A stretch of 42,850 nt of DNA from Acrocarpospora catenulata (GTDB lineage: Bacteria > Actinomycetota > Actinomycetes > Streptosporangiales > Streptosporangiaceae), in assembly GCF_018476525.1 (NCBI RefSeq), contig NZ_JAHCST010000076.1, forward strand, positions 1-42,850, read 5' to 3'. This document shows, piece by piece, positions 1,692 through 42,765 of this stretch. The translations under genes were made by a program, and so were the position numbers. Numbering within the stretch: position 1 is the stretch's first letter; each line of letters starts with the position of its first letter. The notes beneath the pieces are model-generated. The model did no database searches and was not told where the DNA came from. It was given only the letters and a program-made list of their open reading frames with translations.

Positions 1692-1805
1692 GCTCGGGGT
1701 AGCGGCGCTGACCAGGGATGACGCGCCGGTACGTGAGCGTTGCTCAGGATGGGGCCTTTCGGGGGGCCGCGGGGGCCGCCGGGTCATCCGGGGGAGGGGA
1801 TCATC

Positions 1806-2675: not shown

Positions 2676-2685
2676 AGAAATGAAT

Positions 2686-2719
2686 GACCCAGGCCCGTGA
2701 TCGTCACGGTGCCTGGGTC
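2686..2719. terminator. Bidirectional hairpin between usp and hspX-like genes
   Basis: GACCCAGGC (2686-2694) pairs with GCCTGGGTC (2711-2719), and CCGTGA (2695-2700) with TCACGG (2704-2709), leaving a 3-base loop and one bulged T. It lies between the two convergent stop codons and can serve both transcripts. There is no long T-tract. Confidence 0.75.
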
Positions 2720-2732
2720 GACAGATGCCGGG

Positions 2733-3179
2733 TCAGCCTGGCTGGCCCTGTTCGGGGCTTTCCTTCATGGCTGTGCTGATCGGAACACGCATGCCGGGCT
2801 GCTTGCCCTCCGACAGCTTGACGTGCACCTCCAGGATGCCCTTGTCGTAGAACGCCTTGATGTCGCGCTCGTCCGCCAGCTCCGGCAGGGCCACCGAGCG
2901 GGTCACGCTGCCGTAGCGGAACTCGCTGCGCTGGGCGTCCTTCTCCTCCTGGTGCCGCTCCGCGTGGATGGTCAGCATGCCGCCGCTGACCGTTACCTCG
3001 ACATCCCGGTCCGGGTCCACGCCGGGCAACTCCGCGCGCAGGACGTACTCCCCGTTCTCGAGGTAGTCCTCGAAGCGGAGGGGCTGCTGGCTCATCTGGC
3101 GCATGCCCATCAACGGCATGTCCAGCAGGTCGAACACGTCAGGGAGGAACCCCCGATCACGTCTCATCAGTGTGCTCAT
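2733..3179 (-). CDS. hspX: HspX/Acr-like small heat-shock protein (Hsp20)
   Basis: A 148-residue alpha-crystallin-domain chaperone. The domain begins near residue 40 (EDYLENGEYVLRAELPGVDP) and contains RSEFRYGS, the ADERDIKA..DKGILEV segment and a short C-terminal tail. These blocks match the mycobacterial HspX/Acr (Rv2031c) pattern closely, which is the hallmark DosR-induced chaperone; assignment to that subfamily is by motif memory. A strong GGAGGTGAGCC ribosome site precedes the ATG. It starts only 34 bases after the TetR stop on the same strand, so it may be read through from the SRPBCC-TetR transcript. I found no DevR-type palindrome in the short gap. Confidence 0.9.
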   Translation of the reverse strand: MSTLMRRDRGFLPDVFDLLDMPLMGMRQMSQQPLRFEDYLENGEYVLRAELPGVDPDRDVEVTVSGGMLTIHAERHQEEKDAQRSEFRYGSVTRSVALPELADERDIKAFYDKGILEVHVKLSEGKQPGMRVPISTAMKESPEQGQPG

Positions 3180-27967: not shown

Positions 27968-28984
27968 ATGTCCGACCAGCATGGTCATGGGCACGGATCA
28001 CGGACGGCGCGCAGGTGGCGGCAGCTCAGGCACCTGGTCACGCCGCACAGTCACGACAGCGTGGGCAGGACCGACGCGGCGCTGGAGACCGGGAACCGCG
28101 GTCTGCGCGTGCTCGGCGTCTCCTTCGGCCTGCTCATGGTCACCGCGATCGCGCAGGCCGTCGTCGTCGCCTACTCCGGTTCGGTGGCCCTGCTCGGCGA
28201 CACCCTGCACAACTTCGCCGACGCGCTGACCGCCGTCCCGCTCGCCATCGCCTTCTCCCTCGGCAGGCGCGCGGCCACCCGCCGCTTCACCTACGGGTAC
28301 GGCCGGGCCGAGGACCTGGCGGGAATCGTCATCGTGCTGCTGATCGCCGCCTCGGCCGGGCTGGCGGGCTACGAGGCCGTCCGTCGCCTGCTCCAGCCCC
28401 AGGACGTGCACGCGCTGGGCTGGGTCGCGGCGGCGGGGCTGATCGGCTTCGCCGGCAACGAGCTGGTCGCCCGGTACCGGATCAGGGTCGGCCGGGAGAT
28501 CGGCTCGGCCGCGCTGGTCGCCGACGGCCTGCACGCCCGTACGGACGGCTTCACCTCGCTGGCCGTGCTTGTCGGCGCGGGCGGAGCCGCGCTCGGCTTC
28601 CCGCTCGCCGACCCGATCGTGGGCCTGCTGATCACGCTGGCCATCTGCTTCGTGCTGCGGGACGCCGCCAGGGAGATCTACCACCGCCTGATGGACGCCG
28701 TGGACCCCGCCCTCCTGGAACAGGCCGAGCAGACCCTGCGCGAGGTGCCGGGCGTGCTGCGCGTCGGTTCGGTACGGCTGCGCTGGATCGGCCACACCCT
28801 CCGCGCGGAGGTGGAGATCCTGGTCGGCCACCGGCTCTCGCTCATCGACGCGCACGCCGTCGCCGTGGAGGCCGAACACCGGCTCATCCACCGCCTGCCC
28901 CGGCTGCGGGCCGCCACCGTACACGCCGACCCCGACGGCCCCGTGGGCGCCGACCACCACGCCGCGCTGCTCTCACACCGCTGA
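27968..28984 (+). CDS. Cation diffusion facilitator (CDF) metal exporter
   Basis: A 338-residue membrane protein with a His-rich N-terminus (DQHGHGHG) and six membrane helices. The metal-site residues are in GDTLHNFADAL (HxxxD, helix 2) and ADGLHARTDGF (HxxxD, helix 5), the pattern of zinc/cobalt/cadmium exporters. The C-terminal ferredoxin-like domain (VPGVLRVGSVRLRWIGHTLR) is complete. The ATG at 27968 follows AAGGAG; the longer frame upstream is rejected. The last 12 bases overlap the end of the convergent P-type ATPase gene. Confidence 0.92.
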   Translation: MSDQHGHGHGSRTARRWRQLRHLVTPHSHDSVGRTDAALETGNRGLRVLGVSFGLLMVTAIAQAVVVAYSGSVALLGDTLHNFADALTAVPLAIAFSLGRRAATRRFTYGYGRAEDLAGIVIVLLIAASAGLAGYEAVRRLLQPQDVHALGWVAAAGLIGFAGNELVARYRIRVGREIGSAALVADGLHARTDGFTSLAVLVGAGGAALGFPLADPIVGLLITLAICFVLRDAAREIYHRLMDAVDPALLEQAEQTLREVPGVLRVGSVRLRWIGHTLRAEVEILVGHRLSLIDAHAVAVEAEHRLIHRLPRLRAATVHADPDGPVGADHHAALLSHR

Positions 28985-31450
28985 CCGGACGAGACGGGGC
29001 ACGCTCAGCAGCAGGACGGTCAGTACGCTCACGCCCGCCGCCATGGCCCAGCCGGTCGCCGGGAGGGGGACGATGGCGAGGGGTTCGCCCAGGATGGGGA
29101 CGAGGGTGACCAGGGCCTGGAGTGTCGCGGTGGCCGTCACCGCCAGGAGGACGGCCCTGCCCCGCCACCAGCCCGACTCGAAGGCCCAAGAGGTGGCGCG
29201 GGAGACGTAGGCCAGTACGAGGCGGGCGAAGACCAGGGACAGCACGGCCTGGGTACGGACCTGGTCCTGGTCCCAGCCGAGGCGGCGGGCGACCTCGACG
29301 GAGGCGAACACCAGGACGGCGACGGCCAGGGAGCGCCACAGGACCCGCCGGAGCGTCGCGCCGCCCAGGAGCGCGTCCTGGCGCGGGGACCGGGCCAGCG
29401 GGTTTCCGGCGGGGCGGTCGACGCCCAGGGCGATGGCGGGGATGCCGTCCAGGACGAGGTTGATCCAGAGCAGTTGGACGGGCAGCAGCGGGACGATCAG
29501 GTCGGGCCAGAGGATCAGGCCGGCCAGCACGAGGAAGATCTCGGCGAGGTTGCCGGTGAGCAGGTAGGCGATCATCGAGGACACGTTGTGGCGCAGGCGG
29601 CGGCCCTCGCCCACGCCCGCGACGATGGTGCCGAGCTCGCCGTTGGTGACCACGACCGAGGCGGCCTCCCTGGCCACGTCGGTGCCCTCGTCGCCGGCCA
29701 TGGCCACCCCGACGTCGGCGTGGCGCAGGGCGGGGGCGTCGTTGACGCCGTCGCCGGTCATCGCCACCACCTCGCCGCCCTGGCGGAGCGCGCGGACCAG
29801 GTCGAGCTTGGTGGCGGGATCGACGCGGGCCACGACGGACGCGCAGCGCAGGCGGTCCGTTGTGACCCGCGGGTCCATGGGGGAATCGGCATGCAGGTCG
29901 GTTCCGGTGACCACCGGGTCCGGCGGGATGCCCACCTCGGCTGCGACGGCCTGGGCCGTGTCGGCGTGGTCTCCGGTGACCATGACGACGCGGATGCCGG
30001 CCTGGCGGCAGTCGGCGACGGCACTGCGGGCCGAGGACCTGATCTCGTCGGACAGCGCGATCAGCCCAAGCGGGCGGAGGCCGTCCATGCCGAGATCGGC
30101 GCCGTCGCCCTCGGCGAAGGCCAGGACGCGCAGGCCCCGTCTGGCGAGCTTGGTGACCTGTTCGGTCAGGGCGTCGGCGGTCGCGCCGGGGGCGCAGCGG
30201 ACGAGGACCACCTCCGGGGCGCCCTTCACGGTCACCAGCGGGTCGCCCCCGGGGCTGCGGGTGATGACGGTCATCGATCGGGTCTCGGCGTCGAAGGGGG
30301 AGATGGCGATGCGTTCCTCGCCGAGCGGTAGCCGTACCTGGTGGTCGGTGGCGGCCGAGAGGAGGGCGACGTCGACCGCGTCGCCCAGGCCGTCGCGCGC
30401 GTCGTTGCAGCGGATCGCGGCCAGCCACAGCGCGTCCTGGCCTGTTCCGTCGGCCGGCACGTGGTCGGCCACGGTCAGGCGGCCGGTGGTCAGGGTGCCG
30501 GTCTTGTCGGTGGCGATGACGGTGGTGGAGCCGAGCGCCTCGATCGCGGGCAGGCGGCGGACGATCACGCCCTGCCGGGCCATGCGCTGGGAGCTCAGCG
30601 CGAGGGCGGTGGTGACCGCCGCCGCCAGGCTCTCCGGCACGGCGGCGATGGCCAGGGCGACGCCGGCCAGGATGATGTCCAGCAGGGCCGTCTCACCGGC
30701 GGCCACCCGGGACAGCCCGATCAGCACCAGGATGCTTCCCGCCGCCACCGCCAGCAGCCCGATCCGGCGGGAGACCTGGCCGAGCTCGACCTCCAGGGGA
30801 CCGGCCGTCCGGCCGGTGAGCGCGGTGGCGATGCGGCCGATCTCGGTGCCGGCGCCGGTCCTGGTCACCACGGCGAGGCCGGTTCCGCCGACCACGAGGG
30901 TGCCGGAGAACAGTTCCCCGTCCCGGTCGCCGAGCGGGACGTGCGCCCCGGTCGCGCCGGCGGCGCGTTTCAGCGCCGAGTGGGACTCGCCGGTGAGCAT
31001 CGCCTCGTCGACCGCGAGCCCGTGCGCGTCGACGAGGGTGGCGTCGGCGGGGACCCTGTCCCCGGCGGCGACCTCCACCAGGTCGCCCCGCACCACCTCG
31101 GCGGCCGGGATGCGCTGGGTGCGTCCGTCCCGCCGCACCTTGGCCATGGGCGCGGTCAGCGAGGCCAGGGCGCGGATGGCCGTTTCGGCCCTGACCTCCT
31201 GGCTGACCCCGATCACCACGTTGACCACCAGGATCGCCACGATGGCCACACCTTCCGGCACCTCGCGCAGCACGACCAGGGTGACGAGCCCGGCCAGCAG
31301 CAGCAGGATCGAGAAGGGGTCGGCCAGCTGGCGGACCGCGCGGGCGGCCAGGCTGGGGGGCCGCGACCGGGGCAGCTCGTTGGGGCCCTGCTCGGCCAGC
31401 GCCCGCGCGGCCTCGGCGCTGGTGAGCTCGCGGTGCTCCGCCACCCGCAT
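28973..31450 (-). CDS. Cation-transporting P-type ATPase (P2A/CtpF-like)
   Basis: An 825-residue P-type ATPase with the full set of motifs: TGES (153-156), VPESL in helix M4 (271-275), the phosphorylation site DKTGT (D315), KGAPE, MVTGDHADTA and TGDGVNDAPAL. There are about ten membrane helices. It has no N-terminal heavy-metal domain and no CPx motif, so it is a P2-type (Ca/Mg/Na-like) pump. The DosR-regulated CtpF (Rv1997) of M. tuberculosis belongs to this group. The ATG at 31450 has GGGAGG 11 bases upstream; GTG codons at 31459 and 31513 are alternatives. Divergent from devR across a perfect DevR-type palindrome. Confidence 0.92.
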   Translation of the reverse strand: MRVAEHRELTSAEAARALAEQGPNELPRSRPPSLAARAVRQLADPFSILLLLAGLVTLVVLREVPEGVAIVAILVVNVVIGVSQEVRAETAIRALASLTAPMAKVRRDGRTQRIPAAEVVRGDLVEVAAGDRVPADATLVDAHGLAVDEAMLTGESHSALKRAAGATGAHVPLGDRDGELFSGTLVVGGTGLAVVTRTGAGTEIGRIATALTGRTAGPLEVELGQVSRRIGLLAVAAGSILVLIGLSRVAAGETALLDIILAGVALAIAAVPESLAAAVTTALALSSQRMARQGVIVRRLPAIEALGSTTVIATDKTGTLTTGRLTVADHVPADGTGQDALWLAAIRCNDARDGLGDAVDVALLSAATDHQVRLPLGEERIAISPFDAETRSMTVITRSPGGDPLVTVKGAPEVVLVRCAPGATADALTEQVTKLARRGLRVLAFAEGDGADLGMDGLRPLGLIALSDEIRSSARSAVADCRQAGIRVVMVTGDHADTAQAVAAEVGIPPDPVVTGTDLHADSPMDPRVTTDRLRCASVVARVDPATKLDLVRALRQGGEVVAMTGDGVNDAPALRHADVGVAMAGDEGTDVAREAASVVVTNGELGTIVAGVGEGRRLRHNVSSMIAYLLTGNLAEIFLVLAGLILWPDLIVPLLPVQLLWINLVLDGIPAIALGVDRPAGNPLARSPRQDALLGGATLRRVLWRSLAVAVLVFASVEVARRLGWDQDQVRTQAVLSLVFARLVLAYVSRATSWAFESGWWRGRAVLLAVTATATLQALVTLVPILGEPLAIVPLPATGWAMAAGVSVLTVLLLSVPRLVRSAV

Positions 31451-31548
31451 CGTGGTCACCGCCTCCCGGTACGGGCCGGCAGGCGGAACCGGCCGGCGCT
31501 TCGAACTACCCACACTGGGATCGTCGCGGCCGGGCGGAAACGCCGATA

Positions 31549-31562
31549 GGGACCAAGGTCCC
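31549..31562. promoter_or_regulatory. DevR/DosR-type box between P-type ATPase and devR
   Basis: GGGACC-AA-GGTCCC, a palindrome matching the half-sites of the mycobacterial DosR box (GGGACTTNNGNCCC type). It lies in the divergent promoter region, 38 bases before the devR ATG and about 100 before the ATPase start. Confidence 0.75.
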
Positions 31563-31599
31563 TTCCCGAATAGGCCGATAGATGCCTACATTTCAGGGC

Positions 31600-32241
31600 A
31601 TGATTCGCGTTTTCCTCCTCGATGACCACGAGGTCGTCCGGCGTGGTGTCGCGGCGTTGCTGGACGCCGAAGACGACATCGAGGTGATCGGCGAGGCCGA
31701 CACCGCCGCGTCCGGCATGGCCCGCATCCCGGCCCTGAAGCCCGACGTCGCGGTGCTGGACGTACGCCTGCCGGACGGCACAGGCCTGGAGGTCTGCCGC
31801 GAGGTCCGCAGCCGCATGCCGGAGCTCGCCTGCCTGATGCTGACCTCCTACGCCGACGAGGAGGCCCTGTTCGAGGCCGTCATGGCGGGCGCCGCCGGTT
31901 ACGTGCTCAAGCAGATCCACGGTTCCGACCTGGTCGGCGCCGTGCGCACGGTCGCCGCCGGGCAGTCCCTGCTGGACCCGCAGACCACCGCCACCATGCT
32001 GGCGCGGCTGCGCGACCAGGCCGTACGGAAGGACCCGCTGGCCGCGCTCTCCCAGCAGGAGCGGCACATCCTGGAGCTGATCGGCGAGGGGCTGACCAAC
32101 CGGCAGATCGGCGAGCGCATGTTCCTGGCCGAGAAGACCGTCAAGAACTACGTGTCCAACCTGCTGAGCAAGCTCGACATGCAGCGCAGGACCCAGGCGG
32201 CGGCGCTGGCCGCCCGGATGAGGGTAGATCGGAGCGATTGA
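31600..32241 (+). CDS. devR: DevR/DosR-like NarL-family response regulator
   Basis: A 213-residue response regulator that matches M. tuberculosis DosR/DevR nearly end to end. It starts MIRVFLLDDHEVVRRG; the phospho-acceptor is D54 (AVLDVRLPDG); the switch region is LTSYADEE; and the LuxR/NarL helix-turn-helix ends in LAEKTVKNYVSNLLSKL, with K179, K182 and N183 at the DosR base-contact positions and T198 conserved. DosR's second threonine, T205, is Ala here. The start at 31600 aligns with DosR; an ATG at 31582 is in frame. It lies with its likely kinase gene two genes away and next to matching DNA boxes, so it probably activates this island when oxygen falls. Confidence 0.92.
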   Translation: MIRVFLLDDHEVVRRGVAALLDAEDDIEVIGEADTAASGMARIPALKPDVAVLDVRLPDGTGLEVCREVRSRMPELACLMLTSYADEEALFEAVMAGAAGYVLKQIHGSDLVGAVRTVAAGQSLLDPQTTATMLARLRDQAVRKDPLAALSQQERHILELIGEGLTNRQIGERMFLAEKTVKNYVSNLLSKLDMQRRTQAAALAARMRVDRSD

Positions 32242-32242
32242 C

Positions 32243-32256
32243 GGGACGTTCGTCCC
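32243..32256. promoter_or_regulatory. DevR/DosR-type box upstream of the PNPOx gene
   Basis: GGGACG-TT-CGTCCC, perfect 6-base arms, immediately after the devR stop codon and 36 bases before the next ATG. The spacing matches the other boxes in this island. Confidence 0.72.
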
Positions 32257-32292
32257 TCGTCGCGGCACCCCCGGATCCGGCAGGTTGGCTGC

Positions 32293-32730
32293 ATGAGAAG
32301 CGAGTCAACCGGCCTGCGGACGCTCTCTCGTCAGGAGTGCCTGCGCCTGCTGGCCGTCACCCCCATCGGGCGGATCGTGTTCACCGACCGCGCGCTGCCC
32401 GCCGTCCAGCCCGTCAACTACCTGCTCGACGGCGAGACCATCGTGATCAGGACGGCTGGTGGTTCCCGGTTGGCCGCGGCCACCCGCGAGGCCATCGTGG
32501 CGTTCGAGGTCGACGACATCGATCCGGTGACGCGCACCGGCTGGTCGGTCACCGTGCTCGGCCTGGCCAGAGGGGTCACCGACCCCGCCGAACGGCGGCG
32601 GCTCGCCGCGCTGCCGCTGCTGCCCTGGGCGCGCGGCGACGCCGACCACTTCATCGTGCTCACCGCCGACCGGGTCTCCGGCGGCGCCTCGGCCGGCCTG
32701 GTGACGGCCGGCCTCGGCAGCTCCCGTTAG
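32293..32730 (+). CDS. Pyridoxamine 5'-phosphate oxidase-fold (flavin-binding split barrel) protein
   Basis: A 145-residue FMN- or F420-type split-barrel protein: LSRQECLRLLAVTPIGRIVF, then LPAVQPVNYLLDGETIVIRT and VAFEVDDIDPVTRTGWSVTV. These three blocks are typical of the PNPOx-like family seen repeatedly in DosR regulons (for example Rv3129). The substrate is unknown; a redox or flavin-linked role is likely. It is preceded by a DevR-type palindrome, and its stop overlaps the stop of the convergent sensor kinase by three bases. Confidence 0.85.
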   Translation: MRSESTGLRTLSRQECLRLLAVTPIGRIVFTDRALPAVQPVNYLLDGETIVIRTAGGSRLAAATREAIVAFEVDDIDPVTRTGWSVTVLGLARGVTDPAERRRLAALPLLPWARGDADHFIVLTADRVSGGASAGLVTAGLGSSR

Positions 32731-34418
32731 CCCGCGGGGACGCTCCAGCACACCCGGGTGCCCCCGCCTGGCGCGGGCTCGGCGAGGAAGCTTCCGCCGA
32801 GCTGGGCGGCGCGCTCCTGCAGGTTGCGCAGGCCGCTGCGGCGCCCGCCGGCCGGCAGGCCGACCCCGTTGTCCTGGACGGTCAGGGTCAGCAGCCCGCC
32901 GCGCACCTCCACCGCCACGTCGGCCGTGGACGCCTTGGCATGCCGTACCACGTTGGACAGCGCCTCGCGCAGGACGGCCAGCAGCTGTACGGCGACCGGC
33001 TCGGTGATCTCGTGGTCGAGCTGGCCCTCCATCCGCAGTCCCGGCATGAAGCCGAGATGGCCGCGGGCCCCTTCGACCAGGTCCACCACGCGGGCGCGCA
33101 GGCTCGGGTCGTCCGGCAGCTTGGGCGACTGGAGGGCGAAGATCGTGGAGCGGATCTGCCGGATGGTCTCGTCCAGCTCGTCGACCGCGTGCCGGACCCG
33201 GGTGCCGGCCTCCGGCTGCTCGATCAGGCGGATGGTGCTCATCAGGGTCATGGCCGTGGCGAACAGGCGCTGGATGACCACGTCGTGCAGGTCCTTGGCG
33301 ATCCGGTCGCGCTCTTCGAGCAGGCCGAGGCGTTCGGCGTGCTGCCGGGTCTCGGCCAGTTCCAGCGCGATGGCCGCCTGGTCGGCGAAGGCGTGCAGCA
33401 TGCGCAGCCCCGAGCGGGTGAAGGGCAGCCGGCCGGGGCGGTTGGCGAGCGCGAGCACTCCGCGTACCGACCCGGGCTTGCCGAGCGGCACGGCGGCGGC
33501 CGCGCCGGTGGGCAGGCCCTCGATGACGTCCAGGTCGCTGGCGGTCAGGTCGCTGACCATCTGCGGTTCGCCGCTGCTGTAGGCGCGGCCGGGCAGCGAG
33601 TCGGCCAGCGGGATCTCCACGCCCTCCAGACCTTCGGCGCCGTCGGCGATCAGCACCCGCAGGTGGTCCGGGTCGCCGGCGGGGAACAGCAGCGTGGCCG
33701 TGTCGGCGTCCACCATCTGCCGGCCCCGCCTGGCCACCTGGGTCAGGACCTCCTCAGGCCCGGCGCCCGACAGCAGGCCCGTGGTGACCTCGGAGGACGC
33801 CTGGAGCCAGCTCTCCCTGCGCCGGGTCTCCTCGTAGAGGCGGGCGTTCTCGATGGCCACGCCGGCCGCGGTGGCCAGGGCGGTGACGACCGCCTCGTCC
33901 TCCTCGTCGAACTCGGCGCCGCCGCGCTTCTCGGTCAGGTAGAGGTTGCCGAACACCTCCTCGCGGACCCGCAGCGGCACCCCGAGGAACGAGCCCATCG
34001 GGGGATGGCCGGGTGGGAAGCCGTAGGAGTCGGGGTGGTCGGAGATCCGCGCCAGCCGGAGCGGGACGGGCTTCTTGATGAGCAGGCCGAGCAGGCCGAG
34101 GCCGTGCGGCCAGTGCTCGATGCGGGCGATCTCCTCCTCGTCGAGTCCCACGGGGATGAACTCCACCAGGGTGCTCTCCTCGCCGACCACCCCGAGCGCG
34201 CCGTAGGTGGCGTCCACGAGGCGGGTGGCGGTCTCGACGATTCGTTGGAGCACCGTCTCCAGTTCCAGGTCGCTGCCGACCAGGACGACCGCCTCCAGCA
34301 GGGCGTGGACACGGTCGCGGGTGGCGAGTACGGCTTCCAGTCGGGTCTGTAGTTCGGCCAGCAGGTCGTCCAACCGCATGCTGGGGAGAAGGGGATGCGG
34401 CTCAGCCATGTTCGCCAT
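32727..34418 (-). CDS. devS: DevS/DosT-like GAF-domain heme sensor histidine kinase
   Basis: A 563-residue kinase with two GAF domains (about 50-195 and 215-355) and a HisKA_3/HATPase module. GAF-A contains GFPPGHPPMGSFLGVPLRV; the histidine (H138) corresponds to the heme-ligating His of mycobacterial DevS/DosT. The phospho-acceptor is H378 in DRIAKDLHDVVIQRLF, and the ATP site is LREALSNVVRHAK, QDNGVGLP and SGLRNLQERA. There are no membrane segments, so it is a soluble gas or redox sensor. It should phosphorylate the DevR protein encoded two genes away. Its own promoter shows no clear palindrome. The long plus-strand frame opposite is a shadow. Confidence 0.92.
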   Translation of the reverse strand: MANMAEPHPLLPSMRLDDLLAELQTRLEAVLATRDRVHALLEAVVLVGSDLELETVLQRIVETATRLVDATYGALGVVGEESTLVEFIPVGLDEEEIARIEHWPHGLGLLGLLIKKPVPLRLARISDHPDSYGFPPGHPPMGSFLGVPLRVREEVFGNLYLTEKRGGAEFDEEDEAVVTALATAAGVAIENARLYEETRRRESWLQASSEVTTGLLSGAGPEEVLTQVARRGRQMVDADTATLLFPAGDPDHLRVLIADGAEGLEGVEIPLADSLPGRAYSSGEPQMVSDLTASDLDVIEGLPTGAAAAVPLGKPGSVRGVLALANRPGRLPFTRSGLRMLHAFADQAAIALELAETRQHAERLGLLEERDRIAKDLHDVVIQRLFATAMTLMSTIRLIEQPEAGTRVRHAVDELDETIRQIRSTIFALQSPKLPDDPSLRARVVDLVEGARGHLGFMPGLRMEGQLDHEITEPVAVQLLAVLREALSNVVRHAKASTADVAVEVRGGLLTLTVQDNGVGLPAGGRRSGLRNLQERAAQLGGSFLAEPAPGGGTRVCWSVPAG

Positions 34419-34450
34419 TCTGCCCTAGCCCGACAATCTGGACCTAGACA

Positions 34451-34487
34451 CCAAGGCGCCCATCCGGGGGCCGGATGGGCGCCTTGG
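34451..34487. terminator. Perfect 17-bp terminator stem
   Basis: Bases 34451-34467 (CCAAGGCGCCCATCCGG) pair perfectly with 34471-34487 around a GGG loop. It lies 9 bases beyond the stop of the minus-strand DoxX gene and 32 bases upstream of the kinase start. Confidence 0.85.
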
Positions 34488-34496
34488 CTAGCTCGG

Positions 34497-35048
34497 CTAC
34501 TTCAGGACCGGGTACTTCTGGACGATGGGGGTCTGGCTCCACCAGCGGCCGATGCCCAGGGTGTTGCCGGCGGCGGCCTGGGCCAGGCCGATCAGGACGA
34601 TCGCGTAGATGATGTGGTCGTCCATGAAGGGGTTGGTGGTCAGGGGCAGTTCGGCGGCCCACATCATGAGCAGCAGGACGGTTCCGGCGGCGGCGATGCG
34701 CAGGCCGGCGCCCAGGACCAGGGCGGTGCCGATGCCCGCCAGGCCGAGCATGAACAGCCAGTCCACCCAGGCCTGTCCGGCCAGGCCGGAGAAGAAGCCG
34801 CCCAGGGCGTTCTCGCCGGTGCCCTTGAGGAAGCCGGTGGTGGGGCTGCCGCCGTTGACCCAGGCCTTGGCGGCGGGGGTGGCGAAGCCGAAGCCGAACA
34901 GCTTGTCCAGGAAGGCCCAGAGGAAGACCCAGCCGAGCGAGATGCGGGCGACGGCCCAGACGTAGTCGACCGGACGGTGTGCCACCGGAGCCGGAGAGGC
35001 GGGGACGTGGGGGGTCGGGACGGTGCGGCGTCCAGCGGTGGTGGCCAT
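34497..35048 (-). CDS. DoxX-family membrane protein
   Basis: A 183-residue membrane protein with four hydrophobic helices (WAVARISLGWVFLWAFLDKL, WVDWLFMLGLAGIGTALVLG, GTVLLLMMWAAELPL and IIYAIVLIGLAQAAA). The first helix carries the R-x3-G-x-(V/I)-F-x(4)-DKL pattern of DoxX/TQO small subunits, which bind quinone or support redox at the membrane. The N-terminal 25 residues are Pro-rich and disordered. The start has an AGGGG site. It is divergent from the flavodoxin gene over a region with DevR-type boxes, so it probably belongs to the hypoxia island. Confidence 0.85.
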   Translation of the reverse strand: MATTAGRRTVPTPHVPASPAPVAHRPVDYVWAVARISLGWVFLWAFLDKLFGFGFATPAAKAWVNGGSPTTGFLKGTGENALGGFFSGLAGQAWVDWLFMLGLAGIGTALVLGAGLRIAAAGTVLLLMMWAAELPLTTNPFMDDHIIYAIVLIGLAQAAAGNTLGIGRWWSQTPIVQKYPVLK

Positions 35049-35145
35049 CGTTAGCCCCTTTCAGAGGGTTTCTTGTCGCGGTGTCACACCTCAATGACAT
35101 CCGTTTCCGTGCTCCCGCGGCAGGGCTCAAATGCTCATCCCACGG

Positions 35146-35182
35146 GGCCCCTAAGGCCCTTCCGCTGTGGGACTTTCGGCCC
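35146..35182. promoter_or_regulatory. Pair of DevR/DosR-type boxes between doxX and flavodoxin genes
   Basis: A good match, GGGACTTTCGGCCC (35169-35182), and a weaker one, GGCCCCTAAGGCCC (35146-35159), lie with centres 23 bases apart in the divergent promoter region. Paired boxes are usual in DosR-controlled promoters. Confidence 0.65.
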
Positions 35183-35253
35183 TGAACGCCCACCGGCCGC
35201 CGACCGACACTGAAACTCCTGCCTGCTTCGTCCGTGGAAGGAGATGGGCGCCC

Positions 35254-35772
35254 ATGCGCGCGCTCGTGGTGTACGAATCCATGTTCGGCAACACCAAGAA
35301 GATCGCCGAGGAGGTGGCGTACGGCCTGATGGCCCGCATCCCCACCGAAGTCCTGGAGGTCGGCTCCGCGCCGGCCGAACTGCCGGAGAACGTGACCCTG
35401 CTGGTCGTGGGCGGCCCCACGCACGTCATGGGCATGTCACGTGCGACCACCCGCAAGTCCGCGGAAGACCAGGCCGAGGACGGCATCCTCTCCCGCGGGG
35501 AGGGGATCCGCGAGTGGCTGGCCACGCTCCGGGCCGGCGCCCCCGCCGAATCGCCCGTCGCCGCCGCGGCCTTCGACACCCGGATCCGCGGTCCCTTCTC
35601 CGGTTCGGCCGCCAAGGGCGCCCACAAGGCGCTGCGCCGGCACCACCTGCGGCTGGTCAGCCCGCCGATGGACTTCCACGTCACCGGGACCAAGGGCCCG
35701 CTGGTGGCCGGCGAGGCCGAACGCGCCCGCGAATGGGGCCGCTCGCTGGCCGAGACGCTGGCGACCGCCTGA
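35254..35772 (+). CDS. Flavodoxin-domain protein
   Basis: A 172-residue flavodoxin-fold protein. The FMN phosphate loop is VVYESMFGNTKKIAEEV (about 5-21), and the isoalloxazine-contacting loop includes VVGGPTHVMGMSRATTRKSA. It is a soluble one-electron carrier candidate. Encoded near pflA and pflB under the same type of box, it could reduce the PFL-activating enzyme, the role flavodoxin plays in E. coli; that is inference. The ATG at 35254 has AAGGAG about 10 bases upstream; the frame upstream overlaps the DevR box and is rejected. Confidence 0.85.
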   Translation: MRALVVYESMFGNTKKIAEEVAYGLMARIPTEVLEVGSAPAELPENVTLLVVGGPTHVMGMSRATTRKSAEDQAEDGILSRGEGIREWLATLRAGAPAESPVAAAAFDTRIRGPFSGSAAKGAHKALRRHHLRLVSPPMDFHVTGTKGPLVAGEAERAREWGRSLAETLATA

Positions 35773-35801
35773 TCGAGCACGTCTGTGTAGGGAGGTGGGT
35801 C

Positions 35802-36362
35802 ATGGCAGCCAAAACCGGCTGGGTCAGGCGGTGCGTACGCCTGTACCGTCCCGACCGCAACCCGCTGCGCCGCCGCTCTGACCGGTGGGAGGCGCTGGTC
35901 GTGGCCTTCGCGATCGGCCTGGTGCTGCTGTCGGTCTGGCCGGTCACGCTGGTGAGCGACGCGGTCTACCGTAACGGCCTGCGCGAGGAGGCAGCCGGGC
36001 CGAAGTCGCGCCAGTTCGTGGTCGTGACGCTGGTGGAGACGGCCACGGGCGTCCAGCAGTGGCAGCGGCAGGACGGCACTCCCGTCACCGGCCACGTCAC
36101 CCCCTTCACCGAGTTGCCGGTCGGCACCATCCAGCGGGTGTGGGTGGACAACCGCAACCAGGTGACCATCCGGCCGCGCGAGCACGTCGAAACCGTCCTG
36201 TCGACCGTCGTCTCCGCCATCGGCCTGGAGCTCAGCGTGATCATCCTGGTGTTCCTCGGCTACCGCGCCGCCCGGTTCTCCCTCGACCGCGGCCGGTACG
36301 CCGAGTGGACGGCCGCCTGGGCGGTGGCCGAGGAGCGCTGGCGCAGGCACCGCCCGACCTGA
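35802..36362 (+). CDS. Rv1733c-like two-helix membrane protein
   Basis: A 186-residue protein with an N-terminal basic segment (LYRPDRNPLRRRSDRWEALV), a first membrane helix (ALVVAFAIGLVLLSVWPVTL), an extracytoplasmic domain of about 90 residues, and a second helix (VVSAIGLELSVIILVFLGYR) followed by a basic cytoplasmic tail. The NPLRRxSDRWE motif and topology match the Rv1733c family, whose founder is a DosR-induced antigen of unknown function. A GGGAGGTGG site precedes the ATG. It follows the flavodoxin gene by 29 bases and is probably cotranscribed with it. Confidence 0.85.
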   Translation: MAAKTGWVRRCVRLYRPDRNPLRRRSDRWEALVVAFAIGLVLLSVWPVTLVSDAVYRNGLREEAAGPKSRQFVVVTLVETATGVQQWQRQDGTPVTGHVTPFTELPVGTIQRVWVDNRNQVTIRPREHVETVLSTVVSAIGLELSVIILVFLGYRAARFSLDRGRYAEWTAAWAVAEERWRRHRPT

Positions 36363-36376
36363 CCCCCAACCGCAGG

Positions 36377-36410
36377 AGAAGAGCCGCGAGCACATGCCCG
36401 CGGCTCTTCT
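36377..36410. terminator. Terminator hairpin after the Rv1733c-like gene
   Basis: AGAAGAGCCGCG (36377-36388) pairs perfectly with CGCGGCTCTTCT (36399-36410), 10-base loop. It lies between convergent genes and can serve both. Confidence 0.8.
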
Positions 36411-36485
36411 GGCATCTTCACCGTGACGGCTCGACCGGCAGCGCGGCGCGGCCGGCCTCCAGGCGGGCGACCGGGTCCCGGGACC

Positions 36486-37155
36486 TCACTCCTTGCCGTA
36501 GAAGGCCGCGCGCATCAGCGCCTCCATGTCCTGGAGCATCGGCATCCGGGGGTTGGCCGGGGCGCACTGGTCCTCGTAGGCGTCGCGGGCCTGCTGGGGG
36601 AGTTGGGCGAGGTAGTCCTCCTCGGCCACGCCCAGGTCACGGAAGCCGGGCTCGATGCCCACCGCGTCCCGCAGCTTCTCGACGGCGGCGGCCAGTTCCT
36701 CGGCGCCGCCGTCGAGGCCCAGCGCCTGGGCCACGCTGGGCTCTGCTTCGACGTCGTCGATGATCTGCAGCGCCACCCGTTCCGGCCGCCTGCCCAGCAC
36801 GGTGATGATCCGGTCGACGTAGCCGAGCCTGGTCATGGTGGCGTCGGTGACCACGGTCACCCGGTGCACGTCCGGCATGTCGGCCAGGTAGCGGATGGCG
36901 TGCGGCTCGAAGTAGATCTTCGCGGGGACCTTGAACCACTGGAGGTTGTTGGTGCGCCGTCCGATCCGCTTGATGTTGAGCAGGTCGGCGGCCGAGACGT
37001 TGTGCGAGACCGAGTTGCGGCCGTAGCTGCCGCAGCCCAGCGTCAGCGAGGGGATGAAGGCGTTGTAGATGTCGCCGAGGCCGCCCTGGGAAGCGGGGGC
37101 GTTCCGCGTACTCGTCCAGGGCGCTGAGGGCGTTCGCCACCAGTAGGTCGATCAT
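36486..37155 (-). pseudogene. adhE: adhE (aldehyde-alcohol dehydrogenase) remnant with two internal deletions
   Basis: The start is intact: GAGGAG site, ATG at 37155, MIDLLVANALSALDEYA, as at an AdhE N-terminus. Within about 60 bases the similarity jumps, one frame over, to the linker that joins the two AdhE domains (NAPASQGGLGDIYNAFIPSL, then LGCGSYGRNSVSHNVSAADL and TNNLQWFKVPAKIYFE). It runs into the start of the iron-alcohol-dehydrogenase domain (HRVTVVTDATMTRLGYVDRI), then jumps in frame to the AdhE C-terminus (ARDAYEDQCAPANPRMP ... AAFYGKE). Nearly all of the aldehyde dehydrogenase domain and the iron-binding core are gone. Full AdhE is about 870 residues; about 220 codons remain. It is the last gene of the pflB-pflA-adhE row. 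Confidence 0.85.
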
Positions 37156-37170
37156 TGCCGATCTCCTCAC

Positions 37171-37962
37171 TCAGACGCTGGGCACCCCGTACGACCGGAA
37201 CTGCGCGTGCACGCGTTCGATCAGCTCGGGGCCGGGGGGCGGCACGTCGGTCAGAGGGAAGGTCAGGCCGAGCCGCTGGTACTTCTCGGTGGCCATGCGG
37301 TGGAAGGGCAGCACGTCCAGGCGGGTCACGTTGCCGAGGGTGGCGACGAAGCGGGCCAGCGCGTCGACGTCGTCCGGGGCGTCGGTGAGGCCGGGCACGA
37401 GCACGAAACGGATCCAGGTCTCCCGGCCCAGGTCGGCCAGGCGGCGGGCGAAGCGCAGGGTGGGCGCCAGGTCGGCGCCGGTCAGGTCGCGGTAGCCGGC
37501 CGGGTCGCCGGACTTGATGTCCAGCAGGACCAGGTCGGTGTCGGCCAGCAGCGCGTCGCTCGCCCGCTCGCCCAGGAAGCCCGAGGTGTCCAGGGCGGTA
37601 TGCAGGCCGCTGTCGTGGCAGCGGCGCAGCAGCTCGCCGGTGAAGCGGTGCTGGAGGAGCGGCTCGCCGCCGCTGATCGTGACGCCGCCCCCGGCCACCG
37701 AGATGAAGCGGCGGTACCTGTCGATCTCGGTCAGCACCTCGTCCACGGTGACCCGGCGCCCGTCGCGCATCCGCCAGGTCTCGGGGTTCTGGCAGTACCG
37801 GCAGCGGAGCGGGCAGCCGCTGGTGAACACCACGAAGCGGGTGCCGGGGCCGTCCACGCCGACCGACAGGTCCCAGGAGTTGATGACGCCGGTGCCCGCC
37901 GGGGGAGGCGGCGAGCGGAGTTCGCCCGCCGCCTCGGCCAGCTGCGCCGCCCGGGTGTTCAC
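37171..37962 (-). CDS. pflA: Pyruvate formate-lyase-activating enzyme (radical SAM)
   Basis: A 263-residue radical-SAM activase. The cluster motif CPLRCRYC (C50, C54, C57) and the GGEPLLQ SAM-binding segment are present, and the N-terminal SVGVDGPGTRFVVFTSGC is the classic PFL-AE opening. It abstracts hydrogen from the PFL glycine using a 4Fe-4S cluster, SAM and an external reductant. The GTG at 37962 follows GGAGG. A TnpB element now separates it from pflB, so its transcription must read through the element or start within it. It ends 15 bases before the adhE remnant. Confidence 0.93.
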   Translation of the reverse strand: MNTRAAQLAEAAGELRSPPPPAGTGVINSWDLSVGVDGPGTRFVVFTSGCPLRCRYCQNPETWRMRDGRRVTVDEVLTEIDRYRRFISVAGGGVTISGGEPLLQHRFTGELLRRCHDSGLHTALDTSGFLGERASDALLADTDLVLLDIKSGDPAGYRDLTGADLAPTLRFARRLADLGRETWIRFVLVPGLTDAPDDVDALARFVATLGNVTRLDVLPFHRMATEKYQRLGLTFPLTDVPPPGPELIERVHAQFRSYGVPSV

Positions 37963-38072
37963 CGAATACCTCCAGCGTGGATGCCCCGCCCTTCAGGGCG
38001 GGGAGGAAACGCGGAACAATGCGGCACTATCGGCTCCGTTTTCTGTCGGTGGGTCTCGGTAAACTCCTGGCC

Positions 38073-39265
38073 ATGTCCCGCTACCGGCTTTCTCCGACGC
38101 CTGCCCAGGAGGCGGCACTGTCGGAGCATTGCGGGCATGCGCGGTTCGTGTGGATTTGGCCGTTGAACAGCACTCTTTCTGGAAGCCGGGCCGTAAATCC
38201 GCTCCCGGGTTCGCCGAACAGTGCAGGCAGCTGACCGAAGCGCGCGCCGAATTCGACTGGCTGCGCGCCGGTTCGATCATCGTCCAGCAGCAGGCACTGA
38301 AGGACTTCGCCCAGGCGATGGCGAACTTCTTCGCCAGAACCCACAAGCGGCCGGCATGGCGGAAGCGTGGCCAGGGTGAAGGGTTCCGAATCGTCGCCGT
38401 AAAGGCCGGTGACGTGCGCCGCCTCTCCCGCAACGTCGGCGAAGTGAGGATCCCCAAGGTCGGCTGGGTCCGCTTCCGCTGGTCCCGGGCCGTCCCCGAA
38501 GGGGCCAAGTCCTTCCGCGTCACCCGCGACCGGGCGGGCCGCTGGTTCGTCGCGTTCGCCGCGATCCCCGAACCCATCCCCGCGCCGGGAACCGGTGAGG
38601 TGGCCGGCGTTGATCGTGGCGTGGCCGTCAGCGCGGCGGTTTCGACCGGGGAGCTGCTGCCCGCGCCCACCCTGCGGGATTCTGAGAAGGCGCGCCTGTT
38701 GCGGTTGCTGCGCAAACTCGCCCGGGCCGGGCGCGGCTCCAACCGGCGCGGCAGGGTCAACGCCGCGATCGCCAAGCTGAAGGCCCGCGAGAGCGACCGG
38801 CGCAAGGACTGGGCCGAGAAGACCTCTACCGGCCTGGCCCGCCGTTTCGACGTCATCGCGGTCGAAGACCTCAAGGTCAGAAACATGACACGTTCGGCCA
38901 GAGGCACCATCGAAGCACCGGGCAGGAACGTCCGCGCCAAAGCGGGCCTGAACCGCGGCATTCTCGCCGCCGGTTGGGGCCTGCTCGTCACCCGGCTGGA
39001 GCAGAAAGCGCCCGGCAGGGTCGTCAAGGTCAGCCCCGCTTACACCTCGCTGCGTTGTTCGGTGTGCGGGATCGTGGATCGGGAGGCGCGCGAGAGCCAA
39101 GCCGTCTTCCGGTGCCGGTCCTGCGGATACGCCGCCAACGCCGACGTGAACGCGGCCAGGAACATCCGGGATATCGCCGCAGGGCATGCGGTGAAGGCGC
39201 GGGGAGGCGACCGGGATGCCGGGCCTGTGAACCGCGAACCTCAACTTGTCCTCCTTTCCGTGTGA
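38073..39265 (+). pseudogene. tnpB: tnpB (RNA-guided nuclease, IS200/IS605) with one-base frameshift
   Basis: From ATG 38073 the usual TnpB N-terminus is read (MSRYRLSPTPAQEAALSEHC GHARFVW, in two parts). At about 38154 one base is missing (GTG TGG AT TTG GCC where AAT is expected), and the protein continues in the next frame as LAVEQHSFWKPGRKSAPGF to the end. Downstream everything is intact: the RuvC residues in VAGVDRGVAVS, VIAVEDLKVRNM and NADVNAARNI, and the four-cysteine zinc ribbon CSVCG...CRSCG. Unless translation slips, no full-length protein is made. Confidence 0.82.
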
Positions 39266-39307
39266 GATGAGTTGGAATCCCCCGCTTTCAAGCGGGGGAG
39301 GATGTCA
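39150..39307 (+). ncRNA. Probable omega-RNA (reRNA) at the 3' end of tnpB
   Basis: In IS200/IS605 elements the guide RNA spans the 3' end of tnpB and the right-end hairpin, with the guide taken from flanking DNA. Here the right-end stem (39279-39298) is intact, and the predicted guide would be the bases after 39307, which belong to the pflB 3' end. The 5' boundary given is approximate. Confidence 0.4.
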
Positions 39308-41566
39308 AAACGATCCGTGGAAGGTGCGGTCGACCACGTCCTGCTGCTGCTCGCGGGTGAGCCGGACGAAGTTCACCGCGTACCCCGAGACCCGGATGGT
39401 CAGCTGCGGGTAGTTCTCCGGGTGCTCCATCGCGTCCAGCAGGACGGCGCGGGTGAGCACGTTGACGTTCATGTGGAAGCCGCCGGCGTCCATGTACCCG
39501 TCCAGCACGCCGACCAGGTTGGTCACCCGCTCGGCCTCGGTACGGCCCAGCCCTTCCGGCGTGACCGTGTTGGTCAGCGAGATGCCGTCGCGTGCCTCGG
39601 CGTAGGGCAGCTTGGCCACCGACAGGGCCGAGGCGATCATGCCGTGCCGGTCGCGGCCGTTCATCGGGTTGGCACCGGGGGCGAACGGCTGCCCGGCCCG
39701 GCGGCCGTCGGGGGTGTTGCCGGTGTGCCTGCCGTACACCACGTTGGAGGTGATCGTCAGCACCGACTGGGTGTGCTCGGCCCCCCGGTACGCGCGATGC
39801 CGGCGCACCTTGGCCATGAACGAGCGGACCAGGTCGGCGGCGATGGCGTCCACCCGGTCGTCGTTGTTGCCGAAGGCCGGGTAGTCGCCCTCGACCACGT
39901 AGTCGACGGCCAGCCCCGACTCGTCGCGGACGACCCGCACCCGGGCGTGCCTGATGGCCGAGAGGCTGTCGGCGGCCACCGACAGGCCGGCGATGCCGCA
40001 GGCCAGGGTGCGCTTGACCGGGTAGTCGTGCAGGGCCATCTCGATGCGCTCGTAGGCGTACTTGTCGTGCATGTAGTGGATGACGTTGAGCGCGTCCACG
40101 TAGGTGCGGGCCAGCCAGTCCATCATCCGGTCGAAGGCGGGGGCGACCTCCTCGTAGGACAGGTAGTCGCCGGTGACGGGCGGCACCGCGGGGCCGACCT
40201 GCTCGCCGGTCATCTCGTCCCGGCCGCCGTTGATCGCGTACAGCAGGGTTTTGGCCAGGTTGACCCTGGCCCCGAAGAACTGCATCTGCCGGCCCACCGG
40301 CGCGGCCGACACGCAGCACGCGATGGCGGTGTCGTCGCCCGTGTAGCGGCGCATCAGCTCGTCGCTCTCGTACTGGAGTGAGCTGGTCTCGATGGACAGC
40401 CGGGCGCAGAACCGCTTGAACGGCTCGGGCAGCCGGGGCGACCAGAACACGGTCAGGTTGGGTTCCGGGGCCGGGCCCAGGTTGCAGAGCGTCTGCAGGT
40501 AGCGGAAGCTCGTGCGGGTCACCAGGGGGCGGCCGTCCGCGCCCAGGCCGCCGATCGACTCGGTCACCCAGGTGGGGTCGCCGGAGAACAGCTGGTCGTA
40601 CTCGGGGGTGCGCAGGAAGCGGACGATCCGCAGTTTGATCACGAAGTCGTCGATCAGCTCCTGGGCCCGCTCCTCGGTCAGCAGGCCGTCGGCCAGGTCG
40701 CGCTCCAGGTAGATGTCCAGGAACGTGGAGGTGCGGCCCAGCGACATCGCGGCGCCGTTCTGCTCCTTGACCGCCGCCAGGTAGCCGAAGTACAGCCACT
40801 GGATCGCCTCCCGGGCGGTGGCGGCCGGCTGGGAGATGTCGTGGCCGTAGGAGGCGGCCATCCGGCGCAATTCGTCCAGGGCGCGGATCTGCTCGGCCAG
40901 CTCCTCCCGGTCGCGGATCACCGCCTCGGAGGAGAACGCACGGTCCAGGCCGCGCAGTTCGTCCTTCTTGGCGTCGATGAGGCGGGTGGTGCCGTAGAGG
41001 GCGACCCGCCGGTAGTCGCCGATGATCCGGCCCCGGCCGTACGCGTCGGGCAGGCCGGTGATGACGCCGGAGCGGCGCGCGGCCCGGATCTCGGGGGTGT
41101 AGGCGTCGAAGACGCCGTCGTTGTGGGTCTTGCGGTACTTGGTGAAGATCTCCTTCACCCGCGGGTCGAGCCGGTAACCGTACGCGGTCAGGCCGGCCTC
41201 CACCATGCGCAGCCCGCCCTGCGGCATGATGGCCCGCTTGAGCGGCGCGTCGGTCTGCAGGCCGACGACCAGCTCGCGGTCCCGGTCGATGTAGCCGGGG
41301 CGGTGCGCGGTGATCGAGGAGGGCGTGGTGGTGTCCACGTCGTAGATGCCGCGCTGCCGCTCCTCCGGGAGCAGCTCGGTGATCTTGCTCCACACGGCGC
41401 GGGTCCGTTCGGTCGCCCCCGCCAGGAAGCTCTCGTCGCCCAGGTACGGGGTGTAGTTCGCCTGGATGAACGCGCGCACGTCGATCTCGGTACGCCAGGC
41501 CGTCCCACGGAACCCGTGCCAGGCGGTGACCGGGGCCATGTGCTCCCGGTCCATGGTGACCGTCAT
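39305..41566 (-). CDS. pflB: Pyruvate formate-lyase
   Basis: A 753-residue glycyl-radical enzyme converting pyruvate and CoA to acetyl-CoA and formate. The active-site cysteines are adjacent (C417-C418 in [20 protein letters not shown]), and the glycyl-radical loop is [13 protein letters not shown] (G728). Length and C-terminus ([11 protein letters not shown] plus four residues) match E. coli PflB. The ATG at 41566 has GAGGGGG; codons up to 41626 are excluded. The stop codon coincides with the right end of the TnpB element. Divergent from GAPDH across two DevR-type boxes, so it is probably induced at low oxygen, when the radical survives. Confidence 0.95.
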
Positions 41567-41648
41567 CGGAAACCCCCTCGAATCGGCCTTCGCCTTTACT
41601 TTCCTCTGGCAGGGGCGGCGGCTCATGGATCAGAGGTCACTGATCAAC

Positions 41649-41692
41649 AGGACCAAGGTCCCTAGGACTGTCCGGTGTGGGCCGCAAGTCCT
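41649..41692. promoter_or_regulatory. Two DevR/DosR-type boxes between pflB and GAPDH
   Basis: AGGACCAAGGTCCC (41649-41662) differs by one base from the box upstream of devR. GGGCCGCAAGTCCT (41679-41692; AGGACTTGCGGCCC on the other strand) resembles the flavodoxin box. Centres are 30 bases apart in the divergent promoter region. Confidence 0.7.
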
Positions 41693-41772
41693 ACGGCGGC
41701 GGCCTTTCGCCTCTAGGCGGGTGCTCCGGCCGGGCCGGACGATCAGCGCGGAGACACCCGGGAGGAATCATG

Positions 41773-42765
41773 ATGAAGATCGGCATCAACGGATTCGGCC
41801 GGATCGGCCGCGCCGTGCTCCGCGCCGGACTGGCCCAGGGACTCGACATCGTCGCGATCAACGATCTGGCCGACGCCGAGATGCTGGCCCACCTGCTCAA
41901 GCACGACTCCACGTACGGCACCTACGACAAACCCGTCGCCGTCGCGCCCGGCGCCCTGGTGGTCGACGGACGGCGCATTCCGGTGACCGGCTACCACGAC
42001 CCGTCCGGCATCGACTGGGCGGGTTACGGCGTGGATCTGGTGATCGAGGCGACCGGTCGCTTCCGCAGCAGGGCCGACGCCGAGCGGCACCTGAAGAACG
42101 GGGCGCGCAAGGTGCTGGTCAGCGCGCCGGGCAAGGGTATGGACGTCACGCTCGTCCCCGGTGTCAACGACAAGGCCTACCGCCCGGAGACGCACCAGAT
42201 CATCTCGATGGCCTCCTGCACCACCAACTGCGTGGCGCCCATGGTCGCCGTGCTGCATGAGACGTTCGGCCTGGTCAAGGGCTTCATGACGACCGTGCAC
42301 GCGTACACGGGCGACCAGCGGCTGCTGGACGCGCCGCACAAGGACCCGCGCCGGGCCCGTTCGGCGGCGGTCAACATCGTTCCCACCACGACCGGCGCCG
42401 CCCGCATGGTCGGCGAGGTCCTGCCCGAGCTGCGCGGCCGGCTGGACGGGATCGCGTTGCGGGTCCCGGTCCCCGACGGATCGCTGACCGACCTGTCGGC
42501 GGTGCTGGCCCGCCGGACCAGCGTCGAGGAGGTCAACCAGGCCTTCGCCCAGGCGGCGCGCGACCAGCTGGAGGGCGTCCTGCGGTACAGCACCGCGCCA
42601 CTGGTCTCCAGCGACATCATCGGCGCCACCGCCTCCTGCGTCTTCGACGCGCCCCTCACCCAGACCGACGGCACGCTGGTCAAGGTCTTCGGCTGGTACG
42701 ACAACGAGTGGGGCTACGCCAGCCGCCTGGCCGAAACCGCCGCCCGGATCGCCGCCGAACGATGA
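41773..42765 (+). CDS. gap: Type I glyceraldehyde-3-phosphate dehydrogenase
   Basis: A 330-residue glycolytic enzyme with the NAD site GINGFGRIGR at the N-terminus, Asp in AINDLADAE (NAD rather than NADP preference), the catalytic SMASCTTNC (C149) and its histidine in TVHAYTGDQ. GGAGGA is 6 bases before the ATG at 41773; the ATG at 41770 is too close. It stands alone, away from the pgk-tpi neighbours usual for the housekeeping gene, and shares a DevR-type promoter region with pflB. It may therefore be a second, hypoxia-induced GAPDH feeding the fermentative route. The last 85 bases of the window show no further gene. Confidence 0.94.
   Translation: MKIGINGFGRIGRAVLRAGLAQGLDIVAINDLADAEMLAHLLKHDSTYGTYDKPVAVAPGALVVDGRRIPVTGYHDPSGIDWAGYGVDLVIEATGRFRSRADAERHLKNGARKVLVSAPGKGMDVTLVPGVNDKAYRPETHQIISMASCTTNCVAPMVAVLHETFGLVKGFMTTVHAYTGDQRLLDAPHKDPRRARSAAVNIVPTTTGAARMVGEVLPELRGRLDGIALRVPVPDGSLTDLSAVLARRTSVEEVNQAFAQAARDQLEGVLRYSTAPLVSSDIIGATASCVFDAPLTQTDGTLVKVFGWYDNEWGYASRLAETAARIAAER

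Follow-up and report, generated by a model that had tools for sequence, protein, structure and literature searches.

A predicted DosR/DevR-type hypoxia regulon that includes pyruvate formate-lyase in Acrocarpospora catenulata

The window analysed here, a stretch of 42,850 nucleotides that forms the entire contig NZ_JAHCST010000076.1 (C156) of the 10.29-Mb genome of Acrocarpospora catenulata (Streptosporangiaceae), carries from position 28973 onward a gene island that, as judged from its sequence, represents a hypoxia regulon of the DosR/DevR/OsdR type with a probability of about 0.85. The island encodes the response regulator DevR, the predicted heme-sensing kinase DevS and a set of genes fronted by palindromic boxes, including pflB, the gene for pyruvate formate-lyase (PFL). 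The boxes are of the GGGAC type and are predicted DevR sites. That such boxes precede fermentation genes both in this genome and in many related ones points to a dormancy switch that may also turn on anaerobic energy metabolism. Because the window is a whole contig, the island is truncated on its right side where the contig stops.

The regulator is, from its predicted protein sequence, a close relative of DosR that keeps three base-contact residues. In a PDB search its closest solved structure is Mycobacterium tuberculosis DevR (3c3w, 268 bits), with the runner-up at 157 bits. Numbered from ATG 31600, the protein carries D54, which we take to be the phospho-acceptor, together with K179, K182 and N183. 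The last three, rightly described as conserved in an earlier note on this DNA, are named as base contacts in PMC4082495. The GAF-A domain of DevS aligns to DosS and DosT across their complete solved domains and retains equivalents of His149 (heme) and the distal Tyr171, so that the proposed pairing of a DosR-type regulator with a heme-type kinase stands and DevS is a predicted heme sensor. Position 87 (the Glu87 equivalent) is Gly, like DosT, in a residue numbering derived from E87 mutant chains in the alignments. The roles of His149, Tyr171 and position 87 are those given in PMC4082495, which also describes the effect of position 87 as disputed.

Boxes were scored with three matrices: the published OsdR matrix, built from the 26 Streptomyces coelicolor sites in Table 1 of PMC5069765; a symmetric pflB motif, trained de novo on 19 distinct regions upstream of pflB in other genomes of the family; and a devR motif, learned de novo and without imposed symmetry from 27 of 29 devR upstream regions of relatives. 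The window was excluded from both training sets. The pflB and devR motifs converge on GGGACCWWGGTCCC. The symmetric pflB motif, GGGACCWWGGTCCC, has a log-likelihood of 108, compared with 55.9-78.5 for 12 random sets; when symmetry is not imposed, nggtGACctaGGTCCC emerges from the pflB set (123, against 71-85 in 8 random sets) and GGGACCTtgGTCCCTa (163) from the devR set.

All five palindromes listed in the earlier note (31549, 32243, 35169, 41649 and 41679) occur exactly once in the window. The devR motif puts 31547, 41649, 35169 and 32243 ahead of all other distinct window sites, the next being a coding site at 35684; by this measure four of the five palindromes exceed chance. The pflB motif ranks 31547, 41647 and 32241 highest, with a coding site (1531) fourth and 35167 only at rank 15, or 18 under another background. 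The OsdR matrix places 32242, 35168 and 31548 at ranks 1-3 and 41648 only at rank 18. The OsdR matrix and the de novo motifs together bear out a box shared by devR/P-type ATPase, PNPOx, flavodoxin/DoxX and pflB/gap. The fifth palindrome, 41679, falls to ranks 364 and 222 with near-zero scores in both matrices tried on it, and lies inside an insertion absent from the related stretches L050 and L051. A second box beside 35169, at 35146, reaches rank 8 with the OsdR matrix and rank 227 with the pflB motif, and is not claimed.

Among 150 genomes of Streptosporangiaceae, PflB is present in 24, the window's own included, and neighbourhoods were fetched for the other 23 carriers; several of these stretches end at contig ends, which makes the neighbour counts lower bounds. 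In nine of the 23 genomes devR or devS is found no farther than about 12 kb from pflB: eight stretches hold devR or devS at 66% identity or more, and in the ninth genome (G031) devR stands about 9 kb from pflB, just beyond the fetched stretch. Further neighbours include gap (7), DoxX (6), adhE pieces (4) and Hsp20 (3). A strong box (at least 15.8 bits) appears in 13 of the 19 distinct pflB upstream regions, which are the training sequences. In the 29 devR upstream regions, the pflB motif reaches a median of 13.2 bits, against 2.9 in mostly coding null windows; it exceeds the 95% null level in 17 and finds its site at -60 to -63 in 20. When the pflB upstream regions are left out, the 23 stretches hold sites of at least 13 bits at 18 of 42,644 intergenic versus 11 of 347,970 coding positions, with gene calls for such counts taken from a rough custom caller.

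A box at every actinobacterial pflB is rejected: of 27 loci picked as actinobacterial from 80 listed (12 of the 27 being Streptomyces), most reach neither motif threshold. The pflB motif attains at least 14.7 bits at L134, L148 and L162, the first of which probably comes from the same genome as training locus L063. Three others (L138, L141 and L142) reach at least 17 bits with the OsdR matrix. The fetched stretch contains devR or devS (at least 50%) at four of the 27 loci and three of the 12 Streptomyces loci; pflBA adjoin devR/devS also in S. morookaense, S. globisporus and Streptomyces sp. OfavH-34-F. In the Streptomyces loci L135, L137 and L138, pflBA stand beside devR, devS, USP and PNPOx genes, together with adhE pieces, and an OsdR-type site upstream of pflB in L138 scores 18.6 bits. 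Sphaerisporangium melleum (L134) has pflB, pflA, devR, USP and devS grouped in one place.

Whole-genome counts, made as pattern searches and compared with reversed patterns as control, bear on a chance origin of the palindromes, as G+C-rich inverted repeats that play no part in regulation. The pattern GGACCWWGGTCC has 5 sites in 10.29 Mb, 2 of them in the window (reversed control 27; P ~2e-4). GGGACNWWNGKCC returns 48 rows, corresponding to 39 distinct genome sites (reversed control 37 + 34 rows). Five of these 39 sites fall in the window, that is, in 0.4% of the genome (P 6e-7 under an even spread), and one of the five (35686) is coding, inside the flavodoxin gene. The strict palindrome GGGACNNNNGTCCC has 24 genome sites, the same as its reversed control. 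By these counts the boxes are clustered in the window but not enriched across the genome. A chance origin gains from the equality of the strict palindrome with its control and from GGGACNWWNGKCC being rarer than its own. Within the window it gains from loose matches to GGGACNNNNGNCCC, fewer than in shuffles (296 versus 502, an uninformative result), and from the OsdR-matrix sites of at least 8 bits, which number 8 against a shuffle mean of 8.3. The best site of the shuffles averages 12.8 bits, so that on score alone only 32242 (16.2 bits) is clearly distinct with this matrix. Chance is nevertheless a highly improbable explanation, in view of the selection of these sites by motifs from other genomes, their clustering in the window, the fixed position at relatives' devR and the preference of complete 14-mers for intergenic DNA. 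Outside the window GGGACNWWNGKCC has 34 sites, of which the complete 14-mers fall between genes in 9 of 12 cases and the incomplete ones in 4 of 22 (Fisher p 0.002); the caller placed the box of C141 in a frame where frame reading shows it to be intergenic, which gives 10/12 when corrected, and 9/12 was kept. The boxes in L016 and L114 are coding.

Several observations weigh against the hypoxia-regulon reading. Four of the nine complete intergenic boxes outside the window (L121-L124) front genes without an evident hypoxia role, the plain patterns lack genome-wide enrichment, 6 of the 19 pflB upstream regions score below 12.6 bits, and the same-genus relatives L048 and L049, in which a PNPOx gene lies 12 bp before pflB, have no strong box at pflB. 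The OsdR matrix passes the 95% null level at only 3 of 22 relatives' pflB upstream regions; conservation there was missed by this matrix and revealed by the de novo motifs. Finally, given the broken adhE and the TnpB gene described below, the fermentative branch may or may not be functional in this strain.

The predicted regulon is dispersed, not compact: whereas the earlier note had placed the boxes only within a 14-kb stretch, similar boxes front seven other loci of the genome (Table 1), including a second devR-PNPOx-devS module in C35, with which the boxes are probably shared. The box in C148 matches the pattern alone, falling short of both matrix thresholds; that in C138 exceeds just the one set for the OsdR matrix. 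A membrane hydrogenase/complex I-like set (L129:2648-9735, C138) and a sulfhydrogenase-like set (L130:1-3767, C148) lie near these two boxes; hydrogenase genes were rejected as targets, none being directly preceded by a box. Separately, two GGGACN4GTCCC palindromes at G000:C1:198532 and 198555 stand 23 bp apart with mirrored centres. The second module bears on another reading, in which the boxes are real DevR-family operators and the signal is nitric oxide (NO), carbon monoxide (CO) or redox state, or the C35 module is the main regulator. DosS and DosT respond to NO and CO too, according to PMC4082495, and devR2 and devS2 are close to the window's genes, with identical heme residues in devS2. 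Against it, the Tyr171 equivalent and the Gly at position 87 resemble DosT, the O2-binding sensor, and PFL, bd oxidase and phosphoketolase as putative targets would suit a lack of oxygen. We regard this reading as unlikely.

The fermentation genes include an intact pflB frame with a Cys-Cys pair and a glycyl-radical loop. In 20 of the 23 relatives no more than 90 bp separate pflA from pflB; the distance is about 3 kb in L048 and L049, and no pflA was found on the cut stretch of L070. The adhE remnant, between the Rv1733c gene and pflA, retains fragments of both the aldehyde and the alcohol dehydrogenase portions; two adhE pieces stand about 0.7 kb apart in L050-L053, which indicates that the middle of adhE is missing in the window. 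The inventory of the earlier note had neither this remnant nor the TnpB gene lying between pflA and pflB. Both additions are compatible with a real DevR regulon whose fermentation arm is decaying, with pflA severed from the pflB promoter and pflB control a relic, and PMC6302529 describes a pflA pseudogene fragment beside osdR in Streptomyces lividans. We consider such decay rather improbable: the pflB and pflA frames are intact with their catalytic motifs, and the 41649 box is among the window's best.

Gene identities rest on Pfam and TIGR/NF model searches with cut-offs and on PDB matches (Table 1).

Table 1. Boxes and genes of the island, and box-fronted loci elsewhere in the genome
Feature	Position	Strand	Remarks
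DevR-type box, P-type ATPase/devR	31549..31562		37 bp before ATG 31600; best or third-best window site with three matrices
DevR-type box, devR/PNPOx	32243..32256		Rank 1 with OsdR matrix, rank 3 with pflB motif, among best four with devR motif
DevR-type box, DoxX/flavodoxin	35169..35182		Rank 2 with OsdR matrix, among best four with devR motif, rank 15-18 with pflB motif
DevR-type box, pflB/gap	41649..41662		Rank 2 with pflB and devR motifs, rank 18 with OsdR matrix; aligns with boxes in L050 and L051
Claimed fifth box	41679..41692		Unsupported
devR, response regulator	31600..32241	+	Open reading frame opens at 31582; ATG 31600 matches DosR start
devS, GAF-GAF-HisKA_3 kinase, DosS/DosT type	32727..34418	-	Pfam; GAF-A structure matches; H-box
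pflB, pyruvate formate-lyase	39305..41566	-	Open reading frame opens at 41626, likely ATG 41566; TIGR01255 1173 bits, cut-off 994
pflA, PFL-activating enzyme	37171..37962	-	TIGR02493 above cut-off; CxxxCxxC
adhE remnant	36486..36878	-	ADH_Fe_C; NF010378 extreme C-terminus, positions 796-867 of 872; matches run somewhat upstream of 36878
TnpB/OrfB-type gene between pflB and pflA	38129..39265	+	OrfB_IS605, Cas12f1-like_TNB
gap, type I glyceraldehyde-3-phosphate dehydrogenase	41773..42765	+	TIGR01534 408.7 bits, cut-off 367.2
P-type cation ATPase (ctpF in the earlier note)	28973..31513	-	Pfam E1-E2_ATPase
PNPOx-like protein	32293..32730	+	Pfam Pyridox_ox_2
DoxX-like membrane protein, candidate	34497..35048	-	Weak: Pfam DoxX E 0.022, below cut-off
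Flavodoxin	35254..35772	+	Pfam Flavodoxin_1 27.7 bits, just over cut-off 25
Rv1733c family protein	35799..36362	+	NF050032 92.4 bits, cut-off 80
Second devR-PNPOx-devS module, box before devR2	C35, L126:9787-12557		Identities 84%, 69%, 76%
Box at cydAB and, divergently, adh-hsp20-CBS/BON	C102
Box at DoxX copy and Acg-family gene	C119
Box at MgtA-like ATPase	C138		After complex I/hydrogenase-like operon
Box between PNPOx-like and CBS-BON genes	C141
Box at Acg-family gene	C148
Two strong boxes, phosphoketolase/ADP-forming acyl-CoA-synthetase-like gene	C160, L131:10029-10103		57 bp apart

Among the remaining genes, the P-type ATPase scores above the cut-off of the general model TIGR01494 and below that of the SERCA model TIGR01116. 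The DoxX-like gene is 98% identical to the copy at L128:15017-15508 (C119); the flanks diverge, and the box occupies a matching place at both copies. A cation efflux protein is also encoded in the window, as found by profile search. USP and Hsp20 genes lie at 1740-3179 of the same contig, about 25 kb from the island, and were rejected as targets, the only scoring site there being 1531, inside an ABC-transporter frame. The hallmark DosR-type targets within the window are Rv1733c, PNPOx and the P-type ATPase; Acg and a further hsp20 are added through boxes elsewhere in the genome.

In the proposed mechanism, a fall in oxygen would release O2 from the DevS heme and lead DevS to phosphorylate DevR, by analogy with DosS/DosT, in which oxygen loss activates the kinase (PMC5069765). 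Phosphorylated DevR would bind GGGAC-N4-GKCCC palindromes with an A/T-rich centre, as orthology, the kept contacts and the conserved boxes suggest. This binding would raise transcription of devR, the P-type ATPase, PNPOx, flavodoxin and/or DoxX, and the divergent pflB and gap. The output would combine survival with fermentation, PFL yielding acetyl-CoA and formate and glyceraldehyde-3-phosphate dehydrogenase (GAPDH) supporting glycolytic flux; further contributions may come from phosphoketolase, bd oxidase and alcohol dehydrogenase, whose genes carry boxes at other loci of the genome. A broader and distinctly tentative extension would place fermentation in filamentous actinomycetes directly under DevR/OsdR as master switch, with a single heme-sensed regulator possibly turning on PFL, GAPDH, bd oxidase, alcohol dehydrogenase, and phosphoketolase together with its ADP-forming acyl-CoA-synthetase-like partner. 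The 'dormancy regulon' would then be at root a fermentative energy regulon, of which mycobacteria keep mainly the survival part.

Filamentous soil actinomycetes are usually regarded as strict aerobes, and despite this view 24 of the 150 family genomes encode PFL. The conserved DevR-type box before pflB points to a likely regulator and a testable trigger for this gene, and suggests that in harmless relatives the regulon known from tuberculosis as a dormancy programme also serves fermentation. For Streptosporangiaceae, the analysis also provides a model of the box and a list of putative targets. No account of a DevR box at pflB in this family was found in the open-licence full-text literature, among the matches listed.

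Compared with known systems, the island resembles the DosR/DevR system of M. tuberculosis in its regulator, its heme-type GAF sensor, the contact residues, the Rv1733c and Acg (Rv3131) families, the PNPOx-like protein and the P-type ATPase. The M. tuberculosis DosR box consensus is of the GGGAC type, as are the boxes here. Unlike that regulon, the window adds pflB, pflA and gap; M. tuberculosis is not known to carry PFL. In enteric bacteria, FNR and ArcA give oxygen-dependent control of pfl. Control of pflB by oxygen would be common to both, whereas for the window a heme kinase paired with a NarL-type response regulator is predicted to exert it. With the OsdR system of S. coelicolor, whose regulon is defined in PMC5069765, and of S. 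lividans, the window has in common a DevR-type regulator with its kinase and a palindromic box at regulator and targets; in the OsdR system as described, regulator and kinase lie near PNPOx, USP, nitroreductase and CBS genes. The window boxes are of the GGGAC type, in contrast to the GGGCC type of Streptomyces, for which PMC5069765 gives the consensus AGGGCCGATCGGCCCT; GGGCCNWWNGGCCCT has only 2 sites in the genome (reversed control 3 + 5). The closest precedent, which went unnamed in the earlier note, is S. lividans, where the genes reported in PMC6302529 to follow osdR expression include a putative pfl, the pflA pseudogene fragment, gap3, cydA, PNPOx, CBS and USP. Unlike S. lividans, the window has an intact pflA frame, and no nitrate reductase is seen in the stretch. 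In conclusion, the island is, as predicted from sequence, a well-supported addition to the known DosR/DevR/OsdR-type regulons, with the pfl and gap3 genes of S. lividans as its precedent.

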